Below are positions 58,141 to 62,247 of a stretch of 64,000 nt of DNA, one piece after another. A program made the translations under genes and the position numbers. Numbering within the stretch: the stretch's first letter is position 1; every line of letters begins with the position of its first letter. The notes under the pieces were generated by a model. That model did not search any database. It saw only the letters and a list, made by a program, of their open reading frames with translations, and was not told the DNA's origin. This DNA comes from Ianthella basta (taxonomy: Eukaryota > Porifera > Demospongiae > Verongiida > Ianthellidae), in NCBI GenBank assembly GCA_964019415.1, contig OZ025888.1:410001-474000 (forward strand), read 5' to 3'.

Positions 58141-61100
58141 TCACTGCTCAATAGTCACTTTTCTCCCAGCGAGTCTGGCCAGTGCTGTCTGCCCCGCAGT
58201 CAGCCTCACCAATCGGAGGTGATTCAGTTGAGAGGTGCGCTCACACACCACATCCAGCAGCTCTCGAGTGGCATCCTGCGGGCAAGGGGAGGGAGTGTCA
58301 CAGAAGTGATGCAAATGGAGACATGCAAAGTTGCAGGATTGGAAGATGGAAGGGGACTGACGCTATACAAGCTGGAGTGTGTTTAGGCATATCAGGAGTT
58401 GGGAGTAAGTGGAAGGAGGGGGAGGGCAGAGTGGTGGTACTCATGCACACATACCTGCTGCAGCTGTGTGCTTGCTGACAGAGTCAACCTCTTCAGGTTT
58501 GTGAAACCCAACAGTACTTCAGACAGTGCAACCAGCCACTCCTGCAGACATGACATGACAAAGGTGACACACAGCGTGCTACGTAGTCTCTAGAGTGTGC
58601 CTTCAGTACACCACACACATCCACTCCACTGACACTACACCACACTACATTACACCACACTATACACCACACTACACCACACTACACCACACTACACTAC
58701 ACTACACTACACATACCACTGAGGGGTTGGTGATTCCCTTGAGTTCCATCTCCTCCAGACATTGGCTGAAACACGCATCCTTCAACACACACTGCAGCTC
58801 CTCCCGGCACAGCAGGTGTGAAGGGAGGGAGAGACAGGACAACCTGAATGCCGGAGGTGGGGAGAGGGAAGGAGGGAGGAGGGGGAGTGTAGCAACTCAA
58901 GCAATAATACGTACGTACATAGAAATGTACGTGCGTATACTCCTATTTAGTGTCATATACCGTATGTATGGATGTATGTATCAGGTGATAGTGGTCGGTA
59001 AGTGATGTGGTATACTTTGAAGAGCCTGCTGTGTGTGTGTGTGTGTGTGTGTGTGTGCGTGCGTGTGTGTGGTGTGTGTGTGTGGCGTGTGTGTGTGTGT
59101 GTGTGTGTGTGTGTGTGTGTGTGTGTGTGTGTGTGTGTGTGTGTGTGTGTGTGTGTGTGTGTGTGTGTGTGTGTGTGTGTGTGTGTGTGTGTGTGTGTGT
59201 GTGTCCTCGTACCTGTGTTGTGTAGCCATTGTTCTTATAGCCTCACAACAGTTGAGAGGGCTACCATCCACAGACACTTGTGACAAGCTGAGCAGAAATG
59301 GAAGGGGAGAGTTGGATGTAAGGAGCAGGGACAGGAGATGGAGATGACAGGGTGTCTCGTGACTCCAGTCCAGTTGCTATATGATACATTGTCTGGTCAC
59401 AGCTACATACACATACTGGCAGCAGCAACGTGTACGTACACACATGCACAAATATACCATGGGAATTTACATACATGCACATACCTGTGAAGGTGCTGGA
59501 AGATGGTCCGCGTAGTCCTCTCTGTGAGGTGGGTGGGGAGGAAGACGGTGAGCTCCCTCAGCCCCCGCCAGTGACGGGCCAAGTGTTGTAACAGACACAC
59601 CTCACCCCCGGGGTCAGTCATAACACAGCAACTAATGTACTTGAGTGACTGAGTGGGTGGGGGAAGGGGAAGGAGGAGGATGAGGAATGGGGTCAAGAGT
59701 ATTAAGATGATGCAACAGACGATCAAACACACACTCACTCTCATGTACATACACACACACGAACACATCTTAGTAATATCAAAATGCACATACACACACA
59801 CACAAGTAAAGTTATGTACAATGTATGCCCAAACACCAATACTCAGCCCCCACCCACTCACCCCACCCACTCACCCCACCCACTCACCCCACCCACCTTC
59901 ACACAGTCCTTCCCAGCTCGGAGAAAGTGGGCCAGTTCATCCCTACCAACACACCCAGAGACATGACACAGCTCCACTCGACTCGGCTGTAGCCAACAGA
60001 AGGCCGACAGAGCAAAACCATCCAATTTGCCATGTCCAGACAACAACAACCGATGACCTACACCAAACAAAAACAACAACAGGTAAACAAGCAAAATACG
60101 TACAACAGAGTGCAAGTATCCATGCAGGCATGTATGTATGTATGTATGTATGTACGTACGTACGTATGCCTACTATTCACTCTCCACTGCTACATAGTGC
60201 ACCACACCATAGGCACCTCCCACTGCAGTACCCACCTCTCATCCCACTGCAGCACCCACCTCTCATCACACTGCAGTACCCACCTCTCATCCTACTGCAG
60301 TACCCACCTCTCATCCTACTGCAGTACCCACCTCTCATCACACTGCAGTACCCACCTCTCATCCTACTGCAGTACCCACCTCTCATCCTACTGCAGTACC
60401 CACCTCTCATCCCACTGCAGTACCCACCTCTCATCCCACTGCAGTACCCACCTCTCATCCTACTGCAGTACCCACCTCTCATCCTACTGCAGTACCCACC
60501 TCTCATCCTACTGCAGTACCCACCTCTCATCCCACTGCAGTACCCACCTCTCATCCCACTGCAGTACCCACCTCTCATCCCACTGCAGTACCCACCTCTC
60601 ATCCTACTGCAGTACCCACCTCTCATCCTACTGCAGTACCCACCTCTCATCCCACTGCAGTACCCACCTCTCATCCTACTGCAGTACCCACCTCTCATCC
60701 CACTGCAGTACCCACCTCTCATCCTACTGCAGTACCCACCTCTCATCACACTGCAGTACCCACCTCTCATCCCACTGCAGTACCCACCTCTCATCCCACT
60801 GCAGTACCCACCTCTCATCCCACTGCAGTACCCACCTCTCATCCCACTGCAGTATGCACCTCTCATCCCACTGCAGTACCCACCTCTCATCCCACTGCAG
60901 TACCCACCTCTCATCCTACTGCAGTACCCACCTCTCATCACACTGCAGTACCCACCTCTCATCCCACTGCAGTACCCACCTCTCATCCCACTGCAGTACC
61001 CACCTCTCATCCTACTGCAGTACCCACCTCTCATCCTACTGCAGTACCCACCTCTCATCCCACTGCAGTACCCACCTCTCATCCTACTGCTGGCTGCTGC

Positions 61101-62247
61101 ACAGAGCCTCCTGCTCACAGCCCGGCATCTCAGAAGATCAGCCAGCTCCAGAGAGGAGAGCAGCAACTCCAGTAGCTCGTATGGGAGGGCTGCCAAGTTG
61201 GGGGGTGGGGCAGGGGGCAGCTTGAAGAATTCAGGGGGAGGGGACACGGGCGGGGTCCAGGGGAAGGGTGAATAGGGGTTAGTCCCAGCGAAGGGTTGAA
61301 CACGTTGGGACAAATTTGAGGACTGACACCTTGTGCTTGTCTTGGCCGAAAAAGACATGCCAGACTGCTGCTTCAGGCACTCCACATTGCTATCCCAACT
61401 ACCGCATTGGTCACCCTCCCTCTCAGTCCTCTCTCCAAGTGGCAGCAGAGGAATGACAGGTCTTTGACTACATGGTGATCCAGGCTGTGCTGAGGTGCAG
61501 TGTAAGGGAGGGTGAGTGGTAGGAAGGGAGGGGAGGGTGGGGAGAACCACATTCTGCCTCAAAAGAGGGTCCGTGTCTGCTTGTGGAGGATTCTCCTGCC
61601 AACAGGTGCTTCTGGTTGGCTTAGTGTGATGGTGCATTGCAACATCACCCAGAGGAATTGCAACATCAGCCAGGGGTGTTGCAACACTATCCACTGTACA
61701 CTCTACATGTGTGGTAGGAGTGTCCACGAAGTCATAAACACTAGGAATGTGCCGAGGGAGCTCTTCATCACTAGATGACACTGGTGATGACAAGGTATAC
61801 GATGCATGCAACTGTGCATGTGATGTGTGATGACCGTTTGGTAATGTTGCTGCTTGTGGGCTGGGCACACGGTCAATGTCACATTGTGTTGACACGGGCG
61901 GTGATGAGACCAAAAAGTCGTGTATACTAGGGACATGACGAGTGGGCGGAGACAAGGGTGTTACGTCATCATCATCTGAATCCTCAAGGTGGAGGTCCCA
62001 TATCTGCAGACACACACGCACAGGCACACAAATAAGACACAAGATGCAATGTGATGTCACAAGTGCTATTTTTACATTGAATTGCAGCTGCACACACCAG
62101 CAAAGACGGGTAAATATAAAATCTAGTCGTACAGTACAATAGAGGGGTTTGAAGCTAGCACACACATTGCACTGCGCGTGCATCACGAACCTTTGTCAAT
62201 AGTTTGCCTGTAAGAAAATAATCGACGGGTCCCCTTGTTGCGGCCAT
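58141..62247 (-). CDS. F-box / leucine-rich-repeat protein (eight exons)
   Basis: Exons (minus): 62247-62191, 62003-61076, 60057-59897, 59648-59485, 59287-59213, 58843-58717, 58541-58455, 58275-58141. All junctions are GT..AG and phase-consistent. The product is 577 residues if the first donor of the array is used. The N terminus is MAATRGPVDYFLTGKLLTK. Residues 20-288 are acidic, S/P/T-rich and probably disordered, with two copies of RHxPSxxDF (41-49, 103-111). The F-box is about 292-330 (LPYELLELLLSSLELADLLR). The remaining exons hold leucine-rich-repeat-like turns (LKYISCCVMTD, LRELTVFLPTHL, LEEMELKGITN, NLKRLTLSAST, LNHLRLVRLT). F-box/LRR proteins are substrate adaptors of SCF (SKP1-cullin-1) ubiquitin ligases. 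I cannot assign a named orthologue. Confidence 0.82.
58625..58715. repeat. CACTACA-type short tandem repeat in intron 6 of the F-box gene
   Basis: Imperfect ACTAC/ACACC units immediately downstream, in gene sense, of the exon 6 donor (GTATGTGTAGTGTAG...). Confidence 0.85.
59031..59204. repeat. Long (GT)n / (CA)n microsatellite in intron 5 of the F-box gene
   Basis: About 170 bp, slightly interrupted at the left end. It starts about nine bases after the exon 5 donor in gene sense. Apparent cysteine-valine or threonine-histidine frames across it are artefacts. Confidence 0.95.
59845..59898. repeat. 13-bp tandem repeat at the exon 3 donor of the F-box gene
   Basis: In gene sense GTGGGTGGGGTGAGTGGGTG continues as three units of GGGGTGAGTGGGT, each containing a consensus-like GTGAGT, directly after AAG of exon 3. 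G-rich, with possible quadruplex formation. Confidence 0.8.
60125..60170. repeat. (GTAT)n/(GTAC)n microsatellite in intron 2 of the F-box gene
   Basis: About five GTAT units followed by GTAC units, between the large array and exon 3. Confidence 0.85.
60216..61080 (-). repeat. 24-bp minisatellite, about 36 units, starting at the exon 2 splice donor
   Basis: In gene sense each unit is ATGAGAGGTGGGTACTGCAG plus four variable bases, and contains the donor-like AGAG before GTGGGT. The first unit overlaps the true exon 2/intron 2 boundary. The coding frame continues open through all units as MRGGYCS plus G, R or V. One unit has MRGAYCSG (loss of GTGGGT). Because 24 is a multiple of three, every donor gives the same phase to exon 3. 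Confidence 0.93.

Follow-up and report, generated by a model that had tools for sequence, protein, structure and literature searches.

Tandem repeats grown from a 5' splice site are known from human genes. For example, the minisatellite of IFI6 (6-16), reportedly described by Turri, Cuin and Porter in 1995, has a 12-bp unit in imperfect copies. It contains multiple splice donors, and the use of two downstream repeat units as donors yields three mRNAs (PMC4526556). Another example is the VNTR in intron 18 of human ABCA7, in which a 25-bp unit is present in ~12 to ~427 copies; the first two bases of the VNTR are the GT of the exon 18 donor, and use of the next donor, with one unit retained, is also seen (PMC5954066). 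Tandem copies are also the starting point of a model of intron gain, in which exon sequence bearing AGGT is duplicated in tandem (PMC4974935).

The array considered here is of the kind represented by ABCA7 and IFI6, in which a 5' splice site has given rise to a VNTR. It lies in an F-box gene of the sponge Ianthella basta, within a stretch of 64,000 nt (the window), and consists of 24-bp units that begin at the end of exon 2. Like IFI6, this gene has a minisatellite with multiple splice donors, and its unit is likewise divisible by three and free of stops in the coding frame; unlike the 12-bp, imperfect units of IFI6, those of the F-box gene are 24 bp long, nearly identical, and present in 36 copies, in another organism. 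As in ABCA7, the array includes the exon's own donor, although a retained 25-bp unit shifts the frame there and a 24-bp unit keeps it here; moreover, length variation and an effect on splicing have been measured for ABCA7, whereas the F-box array is known from the sequence of one assembly. With the model of intron gain it has in common that the tandem copies contain AG as well as GT, but in that model a new intron arises from exon sequence, whereas here an existing exon-intron junction has been multiplied. The literature matches listed name neither the F-box gene nor a donor array with this unit. Growth of a VNTR from a 5' splice site with the frame preserved had been called unusual in the original prediction; the two human precedents, and a chance of about 25% that the frame is preserved, speak against this. 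What distinguishes the F-box array is the number and near-identity of its units together with the preserved frame. With its dozens of near-identical donors, it amounts to a natural experiment on splice-site choice by the spliceosome.

The gene model was assembled manually on the basis of GT-AG borders and open frames (Table 1). All seven introns are bordered by GT-AG, and the exons join into a single ORF of 577 aa; introns 1 to 7 measure 187, 1018 (from the first donor), 248, 197, 369, 175, and 179 nt. The F-box is above the Pfam cut-off (PF12937, E 7.9e-7, 29.2 bits against 24.3, residues 290–325), a second F-box profile also matches (PF00646, 26.3 bits against a cut-off of 20.5), and the C-terminal end of the domain lies about where the array begins. 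LRRs in the protein are only suggested: an LxxLxL-like motif occurs 10 times, compared with a mean of 4.5 in shuffled sequences (P 0.009), with first four spacings of 28, 26, 25, and 28 and irregular ones later, and Pfam returned no LRR match even at E values as high as 10. The octapeptides encoded by the array matched DUF3432 (25.3 bits, below the cut-off of 26.7), a match that was set aside as low complexity. A genome search gave no paralogue (7 of 10 matches are the gene's own exons and the remaining three have E > 0.1), and no relative with a solved structure was found; the ancestral end of exon 2 is thus not readable from a relative.

Table 1. Positions in the window of the F-box gene, its exon 2 donor array, and neighboring donor-side arrays
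Feature	Positions	Strand	Basis	Remark
F-box gene, ATG to stop	58141..62247	-	Hand-built model	8 exons, 577 aa with first exon 2 donor
Exon 1, coding part	62191..62247	-	Hand-built model	
Exon 2 to first donor	61076..62003	-	Hand-built model, Pfam	Long N-terminal part and F-box
First donor, AGAG/GTGGGT	61070..61079	-		Intron 2 would be 1018 nt
24-bp minisatellite	60218..61090	-	TRF and unit list	36 junction copies
Last (36th) donor	60230..60239	-		Intron 2 would be 178 nt
Exon 3	59897..60057	-	Hand-built model	Acceptor tag/GTCATC, phase 1 start
13-bp array from exon 3 donor	59848..59896	-	TRF	AAG/GTGGGTGGGGTGAG..., unit length not divisible by three
Dinucleotide array	59030..59204	-	TRF	Starts 8 nt after exon 5 donor
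5-bp array	58607..58712	-	TRF	Starts 4 nt after exon 6 donor

TRF reports a single array at the exon 2 donor, with a period of 24, 36.4 copies, and 96% matches. It overlaps exon 2 by 15 nt, so that the exon's own first donor falls within unit 1, and the donor sequence is repeated in the later units: AGAGGTG occurs 36 times on the minus strand of the array, all 35 spacings being exactly 24 nt, and 35 of the 36 units read AGAG/GTGGGT (the exception, unit 10, reads AGAG/GTGCAT). The unit consensus is ATGAGAG/GTGGGTACTGCAGTRGG, translated in the frame of the F-box as MRGGYCS(R/G/V). Units differ from each other at one codon (AGG, GGG, or GTG, hence R/G/V) and by private changes in units 10 and 35; these changes are all non-synonymous, but there is just a handful of them. 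Searches of the 209-Mb assembly (96 contigs) place this array at one locus only, as judged by a search that scores the best candidates only and skips simple repeats. A further 4-bp array lies in intron 2 away from the first donor (60130–60168).

The frame that runs through the F-box is open across all units, whereas the other two frames meet stops. Exon 2 ends, and exon 3 starts, in phase 1, and each of the 36 possible junctions with exon 3 (at 60057) is open to the exon 8 stop, giving 577 + 8(n – 1) residues for the nth donor, i.e., 577 to 857 aa. The original prediction was therefore accurate in describing the exon 2 donor as the first of about 36 tandem units, nearly all with the same donor, and in reporting an open frame with a constant phase 1 to exon 3; the stops or frameshifts that it named as evidence against itself are found in none of the 36 units, and all spacings are 24 nt. 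Its placing of the octapeptides between the F-box and LRRs stands as far as an open protein could result from each donor, whereas the LRRs are only suggested.

An open frame over 36 units was considered as evidence of selection and rejected. All units arose by the copying of a single 24-mer, which makes their openness one event and not 36 independent ones. The chance that such a unit is in frame and open is ~0.25, the product of 0.74 (that the five intron-derived codons are open, computed from the base frequencies in the rest of the intron) and one third (that the length is divisible by three). In addition, only 4 of the 72 possible single base changes in the unit produce a stop, so little can be concluded from the lack of stops.

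The exon 2 donor is not the only one in this gene with an array beside it. In fact, four of its seven introns contain a tandem array starting at the donor or at most 8 nt after it (Table 1), and all four arrays stay at least 65 nt from the acceptor.

Three genes elsewhere in the genome, which encode conserved proteins, give through homology a hint as to which donor is used. In a beta-catenin gene (L057), one exon ends where an array with seven donor-like sites starts. The first junction, VRLAG/GIERLV, shows no gap in the alignment with human beta-catenin (PDB, E 7e-35; a single-residue gap lies farther on, away from it), and the frame is kept by the first donor only, since the other six of the seven sites lose the frame or meet a stop. 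Another example is a BEACH gene (L056), where a 31-bp unit repeated 9.4 times reaches from the end of the exon into the intron, as the unit of the F-box gene does. Here, the first junction (IQRE/ALECEYVS) is gap-free against neurobeachin (E 3e-22), a single-residue gap of the alignment lying earlier than the junction; the frame is open at two of eight sites, and use of the second would insert 31 residues for which the alignment has no room. Finally, in an ankyrin-IQ gene (L064), a 17-bp unit repeated 11.4 times starts at the donor, and the first junction (ICIQ/KYYRGYKARQ) completes an IQ motif that straddles the two exons (Pfam PF00612, E 2e-5, better than the cut-off) and that Pfam does not find in the downstream exon piece alone. 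The frame is kept at 4 of 11 sites in this gene, and the later three would add at least 17 residues inside the IQ motif. Homology in these cases identifies the junction behind the conserved protein but says nothing of how frequently it is made. If the three genes work, the spliceosome must often choose the first of several near-identical donors. They provide frame-breaking comparisons for the F-box array in the same genome, and they indicate that conserved genes tolerate tandem repeats starting at splice donors without evident gene loss.

Applied to the F-box gene, this pattern would predict a 577-aa product, with the array as intron. The most satisfactory explanation is that a 24-nt segment over the junction of exon 2 and intron 2 (~15 nt of exon and ~10 nt of intron) expanded to 36 units, presumably by slippage or unequal exchange, nearly all units keeping the same donor. 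The first, exon-proximal donor would be mainly used, so that the array would be spliced out and the 577-aa F-box protein would be the main product. If the next donors were used now and then, no harm would result, as a unit adds 24 nt and is free of stops, and the protein would gain one to a few MRGGYCSx octapeptides behind the F-box; we infer this preference for the first donor, and the rare leakage, from the comparisons above. The array would be tolerated rather than selected for inserting octapeptides. Taken together, it is probable, on our analysis, that the first donor is mainly used and that the array is mostly intronic and tolerated, its open frame a matter of luck and its further products perhaps a few short in-frame isoforms. 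In addition to the restored junctions of the beta-catenin, BEACH, and ankyrin-IQ genes, this explanation is favored by the ~25% chance of openness, by the 13-bp array that starts at the exon 3 donor as well, and by human ABCA7, where the canonical donor is the GT with which the VNTR opens and one-unit retention has been seen too (PMC5954066). Other observations weigh against it. The intron defined by the last donor (178 nt) is close in length to introns 1, 6, and 7 (187, 175, and 179 nt) and fits a preference for short introns, whereas that defined by the first donor has 1018 nt; and IFI6 uses downstream repeat units as donors, so the preference is not absolute (PMC4526556). The donor itself gives the first site no advantage, because the same donor is present in 35 of the 36 units.

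The second-ranking explanation is the one originally proposed, in which splicing tunes a linker: many of the 36 donors would be used, producing a ladder of proteins from 577 to 857 aa with 0–35 octapeptides between the F-box and the C-terminal part, and alleles would differ in the length of the ladder. It is possible, and it can call on the 36 in-frame and open junctions, on the retention of GTGGGT in 35 of 36 units, and on IFI6, whose two downstream repeat units act as donors for three mRNAs (PMC4526556). On the other hand, free donor choice in the other arrays would often break the beta-catenin, BEACH, and ankyrin-IQ proteins, in-frame openness is not improbable (~25%), and the exclusively non-synonymous changes between units, few as they are, give no sign of constraint at the protein level. 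We consider a tuned linker unlikely. The tuning of a linker by a donor ladder is not supported by the comparable arrays, which favor the first donor, with productive sites numbering 1 of 7 in beta-catenin, 2 of 8 in BEACH, and 4 of 11 in the ankyrin-IQ gene. Its strongest form, with all or most of the ~35 intact donors used in vivo to give a graded ladder of F-box proteins and a linker set jointly by splice choice and allele length, is less likely still.

Alternatively, the last, intron-proximal donor might be used, so that nearly the whole array would be exonic and would encode a constant stretch of ~280 residues of Gly/Cys-rich octapeptides. Intron 2 would then have 178 nt, much like the introns of 175, 179, and 187 nt in the same gene, but the intron of the first donor has an equal length once the array is removed, so the length argument is silent on ancestry; besides, the conserved junctions of the beta-catenin, BEACH, and ankyrin-IQ genes are those of the first donor, and we regard constant use of the last donor as improbable. 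Recursive or nested removal, in which whole units would leave as GT...AG introns of 24n nt before final splicing with the frame unchanged, draws on the AGAG/GT present in every unit, since a donor joined to the AG of another unit removes a multiple of 24; no pyrimidine-rich tract precedes the AG of the unit, however, and the idea appears very unlikely. Equally hard to credit is that no expressed gene underlies the F-box model and that the array is an ordinary intergenic minisatellite, because, despite the lack of a Pfam LRR and of a paralogue in the genome, eight exons bordered by GT-AG form one ORF with an F-box above the Pfam cut-off.

Tandem repeats at donors recur in the Ianthella basta genome. 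They were searched for as three copies of AGGTGGGT with short gaps, a mirror motif serving as control. Overlapping matches numbered 867 for the triple AGGTGGGT against 212 for the mirror motif, a ratio that overstates the excess because long arrays are counted many times. The first 100 test places listed, which cover contigs C1 to C7:8.85 Mb, hold 34 separate arrays, against 17 for the mirror motif in the same range (P 0.024; mirror arrays on C8 were left out to match). Setting aside nine of the 34 as dispersed or local copies left 25 against 17 (P 0.28); the collapsing was a visual judgment, incomplete and confined to the test set, with L067, L068, and L069 counted as three despite related flanks and L061 and L074 sharing a flanking stretch. 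The evidence for a genome-wide excess of donor-motif arrays is therefore weak.

For Pfam, one open frame (two for L066) was taken from each of 13 of the 25 test arrays; the other 12 had no open frame of ~36 aa or a frame that was mainly repeat. Five arrays gave matches (Arm for beta-catenin, Ank for the ankyrin-IQ gene, BEACH, Vps18, and tyrosine kinase). The Arm, Ank, and tyrosine kinase (L073) exons are above the cut-off; the BEACH exon is below it (25.2 against 26.8 bits) but is backed by neurobeachin in the PDB, and a Vps18-like exon with 13-bp units (L066) is also below (21.9 against 23.1 bits), with no other backing. In all five genes, minisatellites with donor-like units start at the exon end or within ~20 nt of it; in the tyrosine kinase gene, the array starts ~20 nt after a GTGAGT donor. 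As for the mirror control, one of the 17 arrays was dropped because it was itself a test array, the remaining 16 were fetched, and eight were sent to Pfam. Two of the 16 had a match above the cut-off, a TCP-1 whose homology stops 18 residues before the array and a CARD whose array start also reads AG/GTGGGT. Exons of beta-catenin, CARD, and tyrosine kinase genes are what would be expected of an animal genome. A motif-specific attraction of arrays to donors is not shown by these numbers (5 of 25 against 2 of 16). At L067, L068, and L069, related short ORFs (..LKRNLTTKLKEGDLPEQLAKDLVTNRLVNE and variants) are each followed by a GTGGGTGGGGC-rich array; the two ORFs sent to Pfam had no match. The three may belong to one gene family whose members carry an array at the same donor.

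Other repeats are present in the window. Just upstream of the start of the F-box gene is a 464-nt inverted repeat (96%; 62343–62806 and 63059–63522), accompanied by a 300-nt direct copy (100%; 62539–62838 and 63523–63822), and we take the two to resemble a recent foldback element. A 9-bp array of GTGGTACAG, with ~178 copies including variants, extends over 1.6 kb (42107–43682). Finally, reverse-transcriptase-like motifs are found at ~55485 (YADD, plus strand) and ~38069 (YVDD, minus strand), the former in a presumably LINE-like and the latter in a presumably LTR-like context, and both are likely remains of retroelements.
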